Below are positions 38,146-44,426 of a DNA stretch of 45,533 nt, piece after piece. This stretch comes from Nitrospinaceae bacterium. Lineage in GTDB: Bacteria; Nitrospinota; Nitrospinia; Nitrospinales; Nitrospinaceae. A program made the translations under genes and the position numbers. The notes beneath the pieces were generated by a model. The model made no database searches and was not told the DNA's origin. It saw only the letters and a program-made list of their open reading frames with translations. Position 1 is the first letter of the stretch. Each line of letters starts with the position of its first letter. The stretch covers positions 1 through 45,533 of the forward strand of contig JAHELC010000016.1 of NCBI GenBank assembly GCA_024644405.1, given 5' to 3'.

Positions 38146-38328
38146 TTAATGGCCGCCGCCACCGCCGCCGCCGGAGGACCACAGGTAGAAGAAATTCAGT
38201 CCCTGAACCTCCATGAGAGCCCAGTCAATCAGGAAATAATAACCGAACATGACAATCGACGCGAGGATGAAATGGGTAATGGACTTCGCGGTTATAAATG
38301 GTCTAGTTTCATCTTGTATTTCAGACAT
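38146..38328 (-). CDS. Small single-span membrane protein with Gly7-His tail
   Basis: A 60-residue protein. A hydrophilic N-terminus (MSEIQDETRPFITAKS) leads into one long membrane segment (about 18-38, ITHFILASIVMFGYYFLIDWA). The C-terminus, LNFFYLWSS then seven glycines and a final histidine, is unusual. Its size, aromatic content and setting next to a CtaM-like protein recall accessory subunits of respiratory oxidases, but I recognise no family. It is the last gene before the terminator. Confidence 0.72.
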   Translation of the reverse strand: MSEIQDETRPFITAKSITHFILASIVMFGYYFLIDWALMEVQGLNFFYLWSSGGGGGGGH

Positions 38329-38379
38329 GAAGTTTCTATCTCCCCTCTCTAGGTTGAAAATTTTGATGCAGGTCCCTGG

Positions 38380-38484
38380 TTACCGCCAGACGGATGCGAA
38401 CCAATAGAAAAACCAAAGACATAAGATAACCGTCGCAAGATAAATCCAAGGCCCGGACTTTTCTTTAAATTTTTGTAAATCCAT
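38380..38484 (-). CDS. Very small membrane protein, 34 residues
   Basis: ATG at 38484 follows AAAGGAAAA and opens a 34-codon frame: MDLQKFKEKSGPW then a single span of about 20 hydrophobic and aromatic residues (IYLATVILCLWFFYWFASV) and a short basic end. The charge pattern suggests the N-terminus stays in the cytoplasm. It is spaced 51 bp from the next small membrane gene downstream, in the same sense. Short single-span proteins of this kind (CydX, CcoQ) are often part of terminal oxidases; this one is not recognised. Confidence 0.6.
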   Translation of the reverse strand: MDLQKFKEKSGPWIYLATVILCLWFFYWFASVWR

Positions 38485-38531
38485 TCGGGTTTTCCTTTTC
38501 TAATTGTTTGAGTGATACAAATGTTTTACTC

Positions 38532-38561
38532 TTGACAGTATAAAAGACGGAATGATAACTT
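38532..38561 (+). promoter_or_regulatory. Candidate promoter for the 35-residue membrane protein
   Basis: Perfect TTGACA (38532-38537), an 18-bp spacer, then TAACTT (38556-38561) preceded by TG, an extended -10. Transcription would start about 27 bases before the ATG. It lies between two divergent small genes. Confidence 0.5.
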
Positions 38562-38594
38562 AACTTTCCCGTTTGTTAATTCAATGAGGACCCT

Positions 38595-38702
38595 ATGGCC
38601 AGTAAAGACGGTAAAATTTTCGATACGATTGTTTTGATCGGTTTGGGGGTCAATGCGTTGACCGCCGCTTACCTGTTGCTGATGTACTTTGAAGTCATTT
38701 AA
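38595..38702 (+). CDS. Very small membrane protein, 35 residues
   Basis: ATG at 38595 follows GAGGA (38586-38590). The frame gives MASKDGKIFDT then a single hydrophobic span (IVLIGLGVNALTAAYLLLMYF) ending EVI. It is the only plus-strand gene in the stretch 37394-42270 and is divergent from the 34-residue gene. A candidate promoter stands upstream. The product is not recognised; a subunit of a membrane complex is a reasonable guess. Confidence 0.6.
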   Translation: MASKDGKIFDTIVLIGLGVNALTAAYLLLMYFEVI

Positions 38703-38805
38703 ACGGGCACAATCTACCATATTGTCTATTTAAGTCAAGGGTAAAAAAAACCTCCCTTTGCCTGAAAAATCCCTGAAACTCCTTAAGTTATAAGACTTTT
38801 CCAGA

Positions 38806-39525
38806 TTACCCTGCAGCGGCCTTCAGCGGGTAAATGACATACAGCATGAGATAAGTGGCGGTACTGGTGCACAGGATCAGGGCGAACAGGATCATGGTTC
38901 CGCGGCCCAGAATACGGTGCCGCCGGGCGCCGTCCGGCAGCCATTTTTCGATCAATTTTTCCAGTCCGACGACCAGGGCAATGGTCATAAATATAAGAAA
39001 ATAAGCCAGTTGTGCGCCGCCCGATTTGCCTGCAATTAGGCAGTACCCCTCCACCAGAGCCCACAGTCCCAGGATCCACAACCAGATCCGGATAAATTTT
39101 TTGGGATCGGCTTTCAGCTCTCCTGATTTGAGTACATAGTCTCTTCCCAGTTTGTCGCAGGCCCGGAAACCTTCCACAATCATGTAGGGGGTCAGGATCA
39201 GTCCCAGGGTGACGAGGGTGAGATGTGTGGTGAGCACGGGCAGGAAAATCGAATCGTATACTTCCGGAGGGCCGCCAAATCCTTCTTTGCCCTCCAGCGA
39301 CAGGACCCCCAGGGAACGGGCATAGTAGTACGCTACAAAATAGACCACCATGGAAACCATGGAGACAAAGATGAGTTTGTGGTGGCGGGTGCCCTGTCCT
39401 TTTTTGGCCATCCACCAGGCCACCAGAAAGAGCACGGTGAAGACCACCGCCAGGAGGTAACTCAGGTCCGCCCCCATGGACCCCGACGCGACCATAAATC
39501 CCGGCTTTTTTAGAAATTCCTGCAT
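38806..39525 (-). CDS. DUF420 (CtaM/YozB-like) membrane protein
   Basis: A 239-residue inner-membrane protein with five to six spans. The DUF420 pattern is visible: RHHKLIFVSMVSMVVYFVAYYYARS, LTTHLTLVTLGLILTPYMIVEGF and RRHRILGRGTMILFALILCTSTATYLMLYV, with conserved histidines that could bind metal or heme. CtaM, a Bacillus member, is needed to make active heme-copper cytochrome oxidase. Compared with the short members, this protein carries an extra middle section (about 125-195). It is 30 bp downstream of the 59-residue gene on the same strand. Confidence 0.75.
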   Translation of the reverse strand: MQEFLKKPGFMVASGSMGADLSYLLAVVFTVLFLVAWWMAKKGQGTRHHKLIFVSMVSMVVYFVAYYYARSLGVLSLEGKEGFGGPPEVYDSIFLPVLTTHLTLVTLGLILTPYMIVEGFRACDKLGRDYVLKSGELKADPKKFIRIWLWILGLWALVEGYCLIAGKSGGAQLAYFLIFMTIALVVGLEKLIEKWLPDGARRHRILGRGTMILFALILCTSTATYLMLYVIYPLKAAAG

Positions 39526-39555
39526 GATGGGTTAATCCGGTTGGGGGAAGGAAAC

Positions 39556-39735
39556 TCAGCTCTGGCTTTTGCCCAGGATCAAAGTGCCTCCGTAAAAGAA
39601 AGAGGCGCCTGCCACGCTGCCCCAAAGCAGGGGTTCCATTCCCATTTGAGTGAAAAACATCAGGACCACGTAGGTCAACGCTCCCAGACCCACGATTTGC
39701 ATGGCTCTACCCAGAAAATATCTGAACGGATTCAT
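39556..39735 (-). CDS. Small membrane protein, 59 residues
   Basis: A frame starting at 39735: MNPFRYFLGRAMQ then two hydrophobic segments (IVGLGALTYVVLMFF and LLWGSVAGASFFYGGTLIL) and the end GKSQS. The two spans are joined by a short loop (TQMGMEP). It is 30 bp from the DUF420 gene and 16 bp from the next gene upstream, all in one direction, so it should be translated with them. Not a recognised family. Confidence 0.65.
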   Translation of the reverse strand: MNPFRYFLGRAMQIVGLGALTYVVLMFFTQMGMEPLLWGSVAGASFFYGGTLILGKSQS

Positions 39736-39751
39736 AGTGTAACCCGGAAGT

Positions 39752-40327
39752 TTATTTGCCCCGGACTTTCTTGTTGGCTTCGATCAGGATTGTAATATGG
39801 TTCCGGCAGAATTCCTGAATCTTCTCCCTGACCATGATCAGGGCGATTTTACCGGGAGTGGTGAATCCGCCCGGGATGTCCGGCAGGGCTTGCTTGGCTG
39901 AACCCTCTTCGAGCTCTTTGCACCGCTTCAAAATTTCCTTGTCATCGTACAGGTCTTCCAGCGGATAACTGTAATGGAGTTTGACATATTCCCGCTCCTT
40001 CTCCGTTTCCTTTTTGGAATCCCAGATGATATTTTCCCTTTCAATCGAAATCGGTTTTTTCTTTTCAGCGTTGATGATCTTTTTAATGGCCTGAAAGTAG
40101 GCCTGCATTTCCTTTTCGGTGGAGAGCTCGTCTTGAGGAATTTTGGAGCTGATTTCGAATTCCAGGCTGTTGTCGTGCAGGACCGGCCGGCTGATTTCGT
40201 AAGTGATGTCGTTTTGGTTGAACCGCCGCCCTTTTTTGGGTTTGTATTTCTTCTGCATCTCTTCGATCAATTGACTCAAACCCTCGCCCGCGTATTGATT
40301 GAACAAAATTCCTTTTAAACTTGCCAT
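39752..40327 (-). CDS. Hypothetical soluble protein, 191 residues
   Basis: A cytoplasmic-looking, charged protein. AGGAGTG sets the start at 40327 over a GTG nine bases earlier. It opens MASLKGILFNQYAGEGLSQL, has a central strand-rich part (NDITYEISRPVLHDNSLEFEIS) and ends with a helical, basic section (MVREKIQEFCRNHITILIEANKKVRGK). No known motif is seen. It shares its transcript with the 59-residue and DUF420 genes. Confidence 0.72.
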   Translation of the reverse strand: MASLKGILFNQYAGEGLSQLIEEMQKKYKPKKGRRFNQNDITYEISRPVLHDNSLEFEISSKIPQDELSTEKEMQAYFQAIKKIINAEKKKPISIERENIIWDSKKETEKEREYVKLHYSYPLEDLYDDKEILKRCKELEEGSAKQALPDIPGGFTTPGKIALIMVREKIQEFCRNHITILIEANKKVRGK

Positions 40328-40536
40328 AAAAATCACTCCTGAATTTGCTTGTGGTTGTGCTGAAAATGAATGTTGAAACAGGGGTCCGACCGGGACTCAC
40401 GCCAGAGGGACTGTCCGTTAATGAAATAAAATTTACCATACCCGCCTTGAAGGTTCATCTTTTGTTTTCAGACGGTGCCGGGGAGTTTAAAGACGATGGC
40501 CCTCAGGCGGATCCGGGATTTATGCGGTAAAACCTT

Positions 40537-41337
40537 CTAAGAGTCTGAAATATCAGGGTTTGTTGCGACGTTGGTGGACGTGAATGAGCCGCTGTTGTCT
40601 TTCAGAAAACTTTTGGTGCCCTCGTCCTGGTAGACATATTTCATCTGGATACAGCCCGGCTGTTTGTCCGCGCAATAGAAACTCATAAACTGAATCTTGG
40701 CGAACTTTCCGTCGGAAGTGCGCATCACGTAGACGTTCTTGCGTGCGGTCAGTTTGTGGGTGATGTAATTGTACTTGTACCATTGCACCAGAACCGGATT
40801 CTCGGTTTGAGTGCGCGTCGATGTATCCGCTATGAAATCTTTTAAAGGAACATTTTCTACCGCTTCGAAGGCAACCTCTCCCAGATTGATCAAGCCCGCC
40901 TTGCCAAACTTGTTGGTGGCGCCGCCGTTGGTGATGATTTTCCCCCGGCGGAAGGCCAGGTCCCATTCCAGTGAAGAGGTATCGTGGATTTTAACCTGCT
41001 GGCCCCGCGAGAAATCAAAATAGGTCCACTCCTCCTCGTTGGTGGCGTCGATCACGATACTTTGCGCCGGGAGCAGGTTGGGATTCACTGAGGCAAGCGA
41101 CTGGGCTCCGCCGAAATTCCGGGACGGTCCGTCAGTTTGCTTGTCTTTCATGCTGGGGGAATCCAGAAAACCGCCCATTTGCTCCAGCTTGACCGGCAGC
41201 CAGAACAGCCCGATCAACAATAGGGTGACGCAGAGATTCAGGATGAATAGGTTTCGCCACAACTTCTTTTTCTTCCGCACCTCCGGACTCAACGGGGGCG
41301 GGGGATCTATTGAACTGGAATCAAAACTATCGTTCAT
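40537..41337 (-). CDS. Membrane-anchored HmuY-like protein
   Basis: A 266-residue protein with a cytoplasmic proline-rich start (IDPPPPLSPEV), one membrane span (about 29-48) and a periplasmic domain. That domain (about 95-245) resembles the HmuY fold known from heme-binding proteins of Bacteroidetes: WTYFDFSRGQQVKI, SLEWDLAFRRGKIITNGG and FAKIQFMSFYC with IQMKYVYQ after it. The histidine pair that binds heme in HmuY is not evident. It lies 21 bp after the CsgG-like gene. A role near heme or a c-type cytochrome would fit the region but is not shown. Confidence 0.65.
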   Translation of the reverse strand: MNDSFDSSSIDPPPPLSPEVRKKKKLWRNLFILNLCVTLLLIGLFWLPVKLEQMGGFLDSPSMKDKQTDGPSRNFGGAQSLASVNPNLLPAQSIVIDATNEEEWTYFDFSRGQQVKIHDTSSLEWDLAFRRGKIITNGGATNKFGKAGLINLGEVAFEAVENVPLKDFIADTSTRTQTENPVLVQWYKYNYITHKLTARKNVYVMRTSDGKFAKIQFMSFYCADKQPGCIQMKYVYQDEGTKSFLKDNSGSFTSTNVATNPDISDS

Positions 41338-41358
41338 CGGTCTTGTAGGGTGAAAGGT

Positions 41359-42270
41359 TTACTTGGATTTTGGCACATCGCGAAAATCCTTCAATACTTT
41401 TTTGATGGCCTCGCGTGAATAATTTTGTTTGTCAAGCCATCGATATTGGGCCGAAAAGGCATTGGCCATGGTCGCGGATTGGGACCCGACGAAGCGGGCT
41501 CCCCAAATGGCTTCCCCGGTCCGGGTGCTGATCAGGTAGACGCTGAACTCCACGGCGGCGCCTTCGCTGGAATCGGGCCGACCTGCACGGTTTTTGAATT
41601 TATTCGTATAGCGGGTAACCGAGCCGATGAGGACCGCGTCGAATTTATCCCTGGAATAAGGCAAATCGTAACCCGGCTTCGAGGCAGTTTGTCCCGAAGG
41701 GGCCGGACTTGATCCGGGACCGGGCGCTTGGTCTGGAGTGGTCACTATCTTCATTTGGAATTCATCCAGCATCCGGGTCGGCGAAATGACCGACAGCTTT
41801 TCGACCCGCTCCAGTTCCGTCGAAAACTGGTTGGCCACCAGAGTCCCGGCATTCTCATCCGCTCCGAATCCGCTGGTTTTATTTTCAAAAAAGACCACCC
41901 CAATCCGCTTGGCCTGCTTGAAGGCTTGACGATCAAATACCTTGCTTTGCACCTGGTCTTTCGGGTCGATCTGCAGAAGCTGGTAATAATACTTCGGATA
42001 CCGCCCCACTTTCGGGAATTTTTTCAGATACTCCGGGATGGGATGCGGTTCGTTGATTGCATCGTTCAGGTTCGGGTTCTGACTGCGGAACTCCCCCGGA
42101 GCAACTTTGTGCAAGGGGTGCGCATTGAGCGACGGATTCGGGTTTTGCTGGTGGTAAGGAAACGCGTCGTCCGTGTCAATGGCCCCGGCCGGCCCGGCGG
42201 CAAAAACCAGCCCCGCCACGCTAATCATGTATAATAATCGACGGATAAAGTTGCGTTGTCCGGAAGTCAC
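41359..42270 (-). CDS. CsgG/LpoB-like exported protein
   Basis: A 303-residue protein. A GTG start with AGGTGAC before it opens into a signal peptide (RRLLYMISVAGLVFAAGPAGA). The first 100 mature residues are rich in Pro, Asn and Tyr. The rest (about 115-290) follows the CsgG/LpoB fold: KRIGVVFFENKTSGFGADENAG, LSVISPTRMLDEF, FDAVLIGSVTRYTNK and AVEFSVYLISTRTGEAIWGARFVG. No lipobox is seen, so it is not a standard lipoprotein. Members form outer-membrane pores or activate cell-wall synthases; the role here is open. Confidence 0.72.
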   Translation of the reverse strand: MTSGQRNFIRRLLYMISVAGLVFAAGPAGAIDTDDAFPYHQQNPNPSLNAHPLHKVAPGEFRSQNPNLNDAINEPHPIPEYLKKFPKVGRYPKYYYQLLQIDPKDQVQSKVFDRQAFKQAKRIGVVFFENKTSGFGADENAGTLVANQFSTELERVEKLSVISPTRMLDEFQMKIVTTPDQAPGPGSSPAPSGQTASKPGYDLPYSRDKFDAVLIGSVTRYTNKFKNRAGRPDSSEGAAVEFSVYLISTRTGEAIWGARFVGSQSATMANAFSAQYRWLDKQNYSREAIKKVLKDFRDVPKSK

Positions 42271-42431: not shown

Positions 42432-44426
42432 ATGAACCATTATATAGAATATTCCTTTACGAAACTCATTTCATTATCCAGCTTTATAGATACTGGTTTC
42501 AGGCATTCCTTGCCATCCGGTTCACCCTGGCTTTTGGCAGGAGTTACATTGATTTTTACAGTCGTTTTCCTGTGGGCGCTTTTGCCGAAAATCCGGATCA
42601 TGACCCTTGCCGCCAAGGAAAACCGGGTGGATCAGCTTATCCGGCGGTTGTGGAACACGTTTGTCATTGCTTTGGGTCAATCCAAAATGTACAAGGACCG
42701 CCCGGCGGGATGGATGCACGCCCTTATTTTCTGGGGGTTTTTGATTCTTCTGTTCCGCGCCCTCCAGTTTTTCTATATGGGATTGTTCCCTCACGCCATT
42801 ATCGAATTCCCCGGCTCAGACGCCATTGGTAGTGTCTACACGTGGATCAAAAATGTTGTCGTGATTTTAGTAACGCTGGCCTGTATTTATGGATTATACC
42901 GTAGGCTAGTGACCAAACCGAAACGACTGAATCTCTCGGTTGAGGGTGTCGTCATTCTTGCTTTGATTCTGTTGATCATGGCATCAGATATAGGGTACGA
43001 AGGGGCGAAGTATGGCATAGCTGAATTTCCCGAGCGAAAAGCTCATTTTGAAATAGGTTTGATCGTTAATTATTGGACGCACATTCTCAGTATTCTGGTG
43101 TTTCTGGTCATCCTGCCGCGTTCGAAACACTTCCATATTATTACGTCCATCCCCAACGTGTTCCTGGGGAACGTGACGCAGACCGGCAACCAGTTGAGCC
43201 GCATCGACTTCGAGGATGAGAGTAAGAAAACCTTCGGCGTGACGCGCATCGAGGAGTTTTCCTGGAAGAAACTGCTCGACCTCCACACCTGCACCGAGTG
43301 CGGGCGCTGTGACGTGTTCTGCCCGGCGCTCAATTCGGACAAACCGCTGTCGCCAAAACAGTTCACCATCGACCTGCGCGATCATCTCAACAGCCAGACA
43401 CCTGCGCTTCTCAGTAATAAGGAAGCTCATGAACCGGCGGGTATCATGGGAAATGTCATTCAGGACGCCACGGTCTGGGCCTGCACTACCTGCGGTGCGT
43501 GCGAGGAGGAATGCCCGGTGATGATCGAGTACGTCAACAAGATGGTCGATCTGCGCCGCGGCCTGGTGCTCACCGAAGATCGCTACCCGAAGGAACTCGG
43601 TGAAGCGTTCAAATCACTGGAAACGCACAGCAATCCGTGGGGTTTCCCCGGCACCCAGCGCGAGGCCTGGGCGCAGGAGCTCGTCGTGAAGCAATGGGAC
43701 AAAAATAATCCGACGGAGTACCTGTATTTTGTGGGCTGCAACGGCTCGTTCGACAACCGCGGCAAAAAGGTTTCGGAGTCGGTGGTGAAGGCGTTACAAA
43801 AAGCGGGAGTCGATTTTTCCATCCTCGGCAACCGGGAAGGGTGCACCGGCGACCCGGCCCGCCGCCTCGGCAACGAATATCTGTTCGACATGCTGGCGTC
43901 GAAGAACGCTGAGACGTTCAAGGAGCAGGGGGTGATCAAAGTGATCGTCCATTGCCCGCACTGTTTCAATTCGCTGAAACATGAGTATCCTGAATTTGGG
44001 TCCAAGCTGGAAGTCATCCACCACTCGGAATTGCTGGCCCGTTTAATAAAGGAAAACAAACTGCCGACAACCGGAGGAGCAACGGATGAAACGGTAGTGG
44101 TGCACGACTCCTGTTATATGGGGCGGCACAATAAAGTATACGAAGCCCCGCGCGACATTTTGAAATCCACTACTGCGCCGGACTCCGTTAAGGAAGTCGA
44201 AACCTCGCGTGAACGCGGCACCTGTTGCGGCGCGGGGGGCGGACGGTTCCTGCTCGAGGAATCCGGCACGCGCATCAGCCACATGCGCGTCGACGAACTC
44301 ATGCAGACGAATCCCGACACTATCGCCGTTTCCTGTCCCTATTGCGTGCTCATGCTGGAAGACGCCCTCAAATCAAAGAACCTCGCCGATACCGTGAAAG
44401 TCAAAGACATCTCCGAAATGATCTGA
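42432..44426 (+). CDS. Membrane (Fe-S)-binding oxidoreductase, HdrD/GlpC-like with NarI-type domain
   Basis: A 664-residue inner-membrane protein. The first 240 residues have five or six spans with NarI-like histidines (H96, H217, H233, H235), likely heme b ligands. Two [4Fe-4S] motifs follow: C287, C290, C293, C297 and C351, C354, C357, C361. The C-terminal half has two cysteine-rich CCG domains (GCNGSFDN, CPHCFNSLKHEYP, CCGAGGGR, CPYCVLMLEDAL), as in HdrD and GlpC. This layout is known from FadF-like proteins, which take electrons from electron-transfer flavoprotein or other donors to the quinone pool. The electron donor is not identified here. Confidence 0.88.
   Translation: MNHYIEYSFTKLISLSSFIDTGFRHSLPSGSPWLLAGVTLIFTVVFLWALLPKIRIMTLAAKENRVDQLIRRLWNTFVIALGQSKMYKDRPAGWMHALIFWGFLILLFRALQFFYMGLFPHAIIEFPGSDAIGSVYTWIKNVVVILVTLACIYGLYRRLVTKPKRLNLSVEGVVILALILLIMASDIGYEGAKYGIAEFPERKAHFEIGLIVNYWTHILSILVFLVILPRSKHFHIITSIPNVFLGNVTQTGNQLSRIDFEDESKKTFGVTRIEEFSWKKLLDLHTCTECGRCDVFCPALNSDKPLSPKQFTIDLRDHLNSQTPALLSNKEAHEPAGIMGNVIQDATVWACTTCGACEEECPVMIEYVNKMVDLRRGLVLTEDRYPKELGEAFKSLETHSNPWGFPGTQREAWAQELVVKQWDKNNPTEYLYFVGCNGSFDNRGKKVSESVVKALQKAGVDFSILGNREGCTGDPARRLGNEYLFDMLASKNAETFKEQGVIKVIVHCPHCFNSLKHEYPEFGSKLEVIHHSELLARLIKENKLPTTGGATDETVVVHDSCYMGRHNKVYEAPRDILKSTTAPDSVKEVETSRERGTCCGAGGGRFLLEESGTRISHMRVDELMQTNPDTIAVSCPYCVLMLEDALKSKNLADTVKVKDISEMI

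Follow-up and report, generated by a model that had tools for sequence, protein, structure and literature searches.

In canonical cytochrome bd oxidases the heme site depends on the small protein CydX for its stability or assembly, and CydH/CydY, the product of the orphan gene ynhF, bars access to heme b595 from the membrane (PMC8585947). CtaM and the DUF420 family have been tied in the literature to a-type oxidases and to heme A/O synthesis, and CtaM is thought to deliver or insert heme for aa3 oxidases (PMC4958251). Nitrospinota are the ocean's most abundant known nitrite oxidisers and most of them are without a canonical heme-copper oxidase; in PMC8026999 and PMC10839748, the electron path from cytochrome c to O2 and the make-up of the CydAA' oxidase of these bacteria are left open. 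Small subunits of the OR-N CydAA' are not mentioned in the accessible parts of the literature on this oxidase. Here, a set of eight genes at positions 38146-42270 of a stretch of Nitrospinota DNA was analysed. The whole stretch, referred to as the window, comprises bases 1-45533 of one contig in a 2.98-Mb, 96% complete genome of the order Nitrospinales. Five of the encoded proteins are named A60 (60 amino acids), B34 (34), C35 (35), D59 (59) and E194 (194), and the first three are together called the trio. The trio probably serves the OR-N (CydAA'-type) cytochrome bd-like oxygen reductase, as subunits or close accessories, and from comparative sequence evidence a probability of roughly 0.7 was assigned to this reading. 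The finding was picked as the best of the window and the partner was reached after a long search; confidence in the partner was maintained because the decisive profile matches are strong, were obtained with profiles built without the genomes concerned, and have the same gene alongside. The trio and the region within it are as follows.

38146-38328, minus strand: A60, single-span membrane protein with the motif LMxxQGL and a glycine-rich C-terminal tail whose last residue is histidine; second gene of a tiny pair, with profile matches in other Nitrospinota families and in two genomes of other phyla.
38380-38484, minus strand: B34, single-span membrane protein of 34 amino acids (KEKAGP...FFYWFASVWR); first gene of the tiny pair, a B34-like gene preceding the A60-like gene in all Nitrospinota outgroup loci examined and in genome G245.
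38485-38594, no strand: divergent intergenic region of 110 base pairs (bp) between B34 and C35, presumably a shared promoter region; the divergent layout is also present at locus L217.
38595-38702, plus strand: C35, single-span membrane protein of 35 amino acids (GKIFDTIVYIGLGVNxLTAxYLLLMYFEVI); the most conserved protein of the cluster, with a 37-amino-acid paralogue elsewhere in the genome.

The C35 gene is oriented head to head with B34 and tail to tail with the DUF420 gene of the cluster. All eight frames of the original prediction, seven on the minus strand and one on the plus strand, were recovered where it had placed them. It had also held that scattering of the genes in relatives, or small frames that are not translated, would speak against it. 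When the window proteins were searched by tblastn and the hits were counted by script, gene order and strand were identical in 64 of 64 loci of relatives, a count that covers loci with at least three cluster genes, includes some genomes twice and contains many loci that are cut short. Of these 64 loci, 47 carry the complete run of seven from HmuY to A60 and 22 carry all eight genes. The identity of C35 across Nitrospinales was 80-97% (tblastn), above that of every larger cluster protein, and a GAGG/AGGA-like, Shine-Dalgarno-like sequence precedes most gene starts of the cluster. Median ratios of nonsynonymous to synonymous substitution rates (dN/dS) within the genus were 0.059 for C35, 0.075 for B34, 0.125 for A60 and 0.056 for D59. 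As far as sequence can show, the tiny frames are genes under purifying selection, and the prediction survived this comparison. It is hardly credible that the small frames go unexpressed or that annotation produced the cluster by accident: scans of the cluster for promoters and terminators gave nothing beyond shuffled sequences, as such an accident would allow, but the dN/dS values of 0.06-0.13, the identity across the order, the Shine-Dalgarno-like sequences and the homologues in other phyla argue against it. Window and outgroup members of the trio had no family match in Pfam or NCBIfam. Matches of the B34 and A60 profiles among solved structures were rejected as chance.

A first pointer to an oxidase came from G061, an outgroup genome of the same class, and further linkage was seen in homologues outside the phylum. 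An A60 profile built from Nitrospinota only was searched against 387 genomes, of which about 310 belong to other phyla, and outside Nitrospinota gave strong matches only in G245 (expectation value, E, 9.4e-11) and G279 (1.6e-9), with the next match at 0.0027. The gene order in G245 is C35-like (divergent), B34-like, A60-like and, after 27 bp, a gene for a 617-amino-acid CydA-like protein (PF01654), followed by cytochromes c, a tetratricopeptide repeat protein and a cytochrome b; all three tiny families lie inside 400 bp and are arranged as in the window. In G279, 29 bp separate the A60-like gene from the CydA-like gene downstream of it (646 amino acids, PF01654); the cytochromes that follow are as in G245, and a C35-like gene is found at a distance of 6.7 kb. 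These neighbours were first spotted by reading the loci and were then tested with profiles excluding both genomes against 8083 frames. The Nitrospinales profile of A60 recovered its homologues with E-values of 4e-9 in G245 and 8e-5 in G279. For B34 in G245, the Nitrospinota profile gave 2.9e-7 and the Nitrospinales-only profile 0.010. The Nitrospinota profile of C35 gave 4.7e-6 in G245 and 2.4e-4 in G279, and values with Nitrospinales C35 alone were 0.085 or weaker; an earlier C35 search had included the G245 and G279 sequences, and its matches there, which arise by construction, were not counted.

Inside the phylum, the A60 profile built from Nitrospinales only found homologues in all families outside the order that carry a CydA-like gene, namely f5, f6 and f9, with E-values of 5e-9 to 3.5e-4 per genome. 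Families f7 and f8 lack both the B34/A60 pair and CydA-like genes, a small contrast of four genomes, three of which are less than 90% complete. Genomes of f1-f4 almost all carry the B34/A60 pair, which was also found in f5, f6 and f9, and at each outgroup locus examined in f5, f6 and f9 the B34-like gene stands directly before the A60-like gene. In the outgroup genome G061, an OR-N operon is headed by one-helix frames of 39 and 35 amino acids which resemble B34 and A60, and continues with cytochromes c and a 618-amino-acid CydA-like protein. These operons could also be read in another way, with the tiny proteins belonging to the multiheme cytochromes c or to the downstream cytochrome b instead of the CydA-like subunit. 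The operon in G245 and G279 also encodes a cytochrome b and several cytochromes c with membrane anchors, and the A60-like gene of G061 adjoins a cytochrome c gene instead of CydA; in both G245 and G279, however, the A60 gene is directly beside CydA, and attribution to the cytochromes was judged quite improbable.

Frames related to C35 or resembling it were also observed at other loci. A C35 paralogue of 37-38 amino acids is present in nearly all Nitrospinales away from the cluster (G000:C1:184617-184730, L186 6615-6731, and equivalents), flanked by genes for a leucine-rich-repeat protein and an arginyl/leucyl-transferase-like protein, and in family f9 a C35 homologue of 36-41 amino acids is mostly found beside a PolX-like gene. 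At a separate G061 locus (L143 3264-9257), an 849-amino-acid CydA-like protein is encoded together with two NuoM/NuoN-like proteins and, between them, a one-helix frame of 45 amino acids; the locus is possibly a bd-like oxidase joined to ion-pump modules. The 45-amino-acid frame was considered as a C35 member and was not used, the conserved G..N being missing and the alignment poor.

The proposed partner is a CydA-like protein of 600-720 amino acids with PF01654 in its N-terminal half and cytochrome c neighbours. A search with PF01654 over the 387 genomes also returned many canonical bd oxidases and several OR-N-like genes without trio matches. In a tree of 30 CydA-like proteins, a branch with support 100/98 placed the trio-adjacent genes of G061, G245 and G279 together with the genes of f6 and f9 and the OR-N1-type gene of Nitrospinales. 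The OR-N2-type gene of Nitrospinales fell on the opposite side, along with the OR-N genes of G114, G136, G158 and G265, lineages without trio matches. The names OR-N1 and OR-N2 were assigned by length and operon after PMC10839748, and this assignment is backed only by the present 30-protein tree. By analogy with CtaM, the original prediction implied a heme-copper oxidase as partner, which was rejected in favour of the bd-like OR-N type: a COX1 search of the window's own genome yielded one full-length match, a frame of 942 amino acids, and one fragment below the cut-off, and such oxidases are known from only a few Nitrospinia according to PMC10839748, against a near-universal cluster. N. gracilis has a fused cbb3 oxidase that the 942-amino-acid frame resembles (PMC3578206).

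The remaining genes of the cluster encode larger proteins and one further small membrane protein.

38806-39525, minus strand: DUF420 (CtaM-like) membrane protein, 239 amino acids, Pfam PF04238; six long helices in the model and invariant H48, H101 and H203.
39556-39735, minus strand: D59, hydrophobic, probably two-span membrane protein of 59 amino acids; no known family in Pfam or NCBIfam, among the fetched loci only in the Nitrospinales cluster.
39752-40336, minus strand: E194, 194 amino acids, probably soluble; no known family in Pfam or NCBIfam, among the fetched loci only in the Nitrospinales cluster.
40537-41337, minus strand: HmuY-domain protein, 266 amino acids, anchored by an N-terminal membrane helix instead of carrying a lipoprotein signal; Pfam PF14064, fold model, conserved H194.
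41359-42270, minus strand: exported protein, 303 amino acids, at most weakly CsgG-like; orthologues found by tblastn, with weak Pfam matches in few of these.

Divergent from the cluster, at window positions 42432-44426 on the plus strand, lies a gene for an HdrD/GlpC-like iron-sulfur membrane protein, and this adjacency is kept across Nitrospinales.

The predicted HmuY-like and DUF420 labels were borne out by Pfam, which recognised no other protein of the cluster. The HmuY-like protein scored 84.8 bits against a cut-off of 27 (PF14064), and its fold model (predicted local distance difference test score, pLDDT, 70) matched the crystal structures of BfrB and HmuY in Foldseek with E-values of 3e-12 to 9e-7. 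Its residue H194 is conserved in 16 of 16 aligned homologues and is the sole histidine with this property; therefore a bis-histidine heme site like that of HmuY is unproven for this family, and methionine or other ligands are possible. Outside Nitrospinales, membrane-anchored HmuY-domain proteins were found near oxidases in three lineages: at a second CydA-like locus of G061; in G279, 708 bp from the OR-N operon and divergent from it (E 6e-42 with the profile from Nitrospinales); and in G063 (L178 5113-9735) as the last gene of one operon with COX1, a 42-amino-acid protein, CtaB and SCO1. HmuY-like proteins are genuinely, though not exclusively, linked to oxidases. Most Nitrospinales also have a second, divergent HmuY-domain paralogue with a membrane anchor (G000:C28:93320-94036, L183 7320-8036, and equivalents), and its gene neighbours one like that for a sulfatase-modifying factor and one like that for ribonuclease E/G.

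The DUF420 protein scored 63.7 bits against a cut-off of 30.5 (PF04238), its three histidines are invariant among homologues, and the six long helices come from a structure model of moderate confidence, with which Foldseek returned no significant match. Solved structures contained no relative of the C35, DUF420 or CsgG-like families, and an NCBIfam scan of the cluster proteins added nothing credible to the Pfam result. Beside the DUF420 homologue of G061 (L115 7961-11121) a fused nitrite/sulfite reductase-TusA-like gene was observed, with an ammonium transporter near. The predicted CsgG/LpoB-like character of the exported protein proved weak, as the window protein has no Pfam match to CsgG (PF03783) and two of 14 orthologues reach only E 0.018.

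Several observations weigh against the proposed link to the OR-N oxidase. Within Nitrospinales the trio never adjoins the CydA operon, the cluster having no oxidase neighbour, and in f6 and f9 it is likewise not beside that operon, so that the linkage comes from three lineages (G061, G245 and G279). A profile search detected no C35 homologue in f6, and no B34 homologue was found beside the A60-like gene of G279. An oxidase stands beside the HmuY gene at only three of the ten loci examined outside Nitrospinales, the other seven having different neighbours. Finally, G002, one of seven other genomes of the genus, contains OR-N1 and none of the tested cluster genes, which may reflect a missing contig in this 97% complete genome.

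The eight genes may form more than one functional unit, because the tie of the DUF420 protein, D59, E194 and the CsgG-like protein to the oxidase is positional only. In its strongest form, this would mean two unrelated adjoining groups, the trio acting for the oxidase and the CsgG-like, HmuY-like, E194, D59 and DUF420 genes forming a separate envelope or heme system. The strand pattern, which gives three transcription units, is in keeping with such a division, as are the D59, E194 and CsgG-like genes, seen solely in Nitrospinales among the fetched loci, and the DUF420 genes of G061 and G063, which have no tiny genes nearby. On the other hand, the gene order is fixed throughout Nitrospinales and HmuY-like genes adjoin oxidase operons in the three other lineages; the division is a serious possibility, if not the favoured one. 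The predicted accessory or assembly module of a respiratory complex encoded outside the window thus fits the trio well and the HmuY-like protein reasonably, and extends to the other four proteins by position only.

Genes, conservation, selection, homology, operon linkage and co-occurrence were established in the present analysis, and from these we infer physical binding, a CydX-like role and heme handling. On the preferred assignment to the OR-N oxidase, the trio would supply one-helix partners of a CydAA' whose CydA-like and cytochrome c genes are located at other sites of the genome. The three proteins would most likely pack against the CydA-like subunit, like CydX and CydH/CydY on CydA in canonical cytochrome bd, where they could hold the heme-binding helices and close membrane access to the hemes. 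The divergent layout kept between G245 and Nitrospinales suggests coordinated expression of the two units. A60, B34 and C35 may be physical subunits or assembly factors. That they are low-abundance assembly factors or regulators, not stoichiometric subunits, would agree with a cluster in which the trio accompanies the DUF420 and HmuY-like genes, whose products are both plausible as assembly proteins (CtaM, PMC4958251); it was considered unlikely, since size, single helix and position ahead of CydA suit small subunits of the kind of CydX and CydH/CydY (PMC8585947).

The membrane-anchored HmuY-like protein would most likely act in heme handling on the periplasmic side during oxidase assembly, and the DUF420 protein could serve heme insertion or maturation in the manner of CtaM. 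This fuller picture including heme delivery is tentative and somewhat unlikely to hold as a whole. As speculation, the 37-amino-acid C35 paralogue may serve the second CydA-like subunit. The most far-reaching version, in which the trio would be stoichiometric CydAA' subunits across several phyla, the 35- and 37-amino-acid proteins would be allotted one to each CydA-like subunit, and the HmuY-like and DUF420 proteins would form an undescribed heme-delivery route to a cytochrome c-oxidising bd-type enzyme, appears rather unlikely. As candidate small subunits and assembly proteins, the products of this cluster make purification, heterologous assembly and structure determination of CydAA' testable, and the trio provides gene markers for the enzyme.

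Compared with described systems, the window DUF420 protein shares PF04238 and the conserved histidines with CtaM/YozB, but its model has six long helices as against four helices in CtaM (PMC8239418). With the HmuY of Bacteroidota the window protein has the PF14064 domain and the fold in common; it differs in that its family has an N-terminal membrane helix, a single conserved histidine and a position beside terminal-oxidase operons in three lineages. The OR-N-type CydAA' of Nitrospira and Nitrospinota, proposed here as the partner, has a subunit composition that is described as unconfirmed in PMC10839748. Unlike canonical cytochrome bd, the CydA-like partner of the trio is without the canonical Q-loop and is probably fed by cytochrome c (PMC3578206, PMC10839748). 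The closest likeness is to CydX/AppX and CydH/CydY, which have a single helix and about 30-40 residues and accompany a CydA-type oxidase, and the gene of CydH/CydY lies away from the oxidase operon, as the trio does here (PMC8585947). Like CydX and CydH, the trio is co-encoded or co-occurs with a CydA-type gene, but it comprises three families instead of two and has no sequence match to them in Pfam or NCBIfam. If the assignment is correct, the theme of orphan one-helix subunits would also hold for a separate branch within the bd superfamily.

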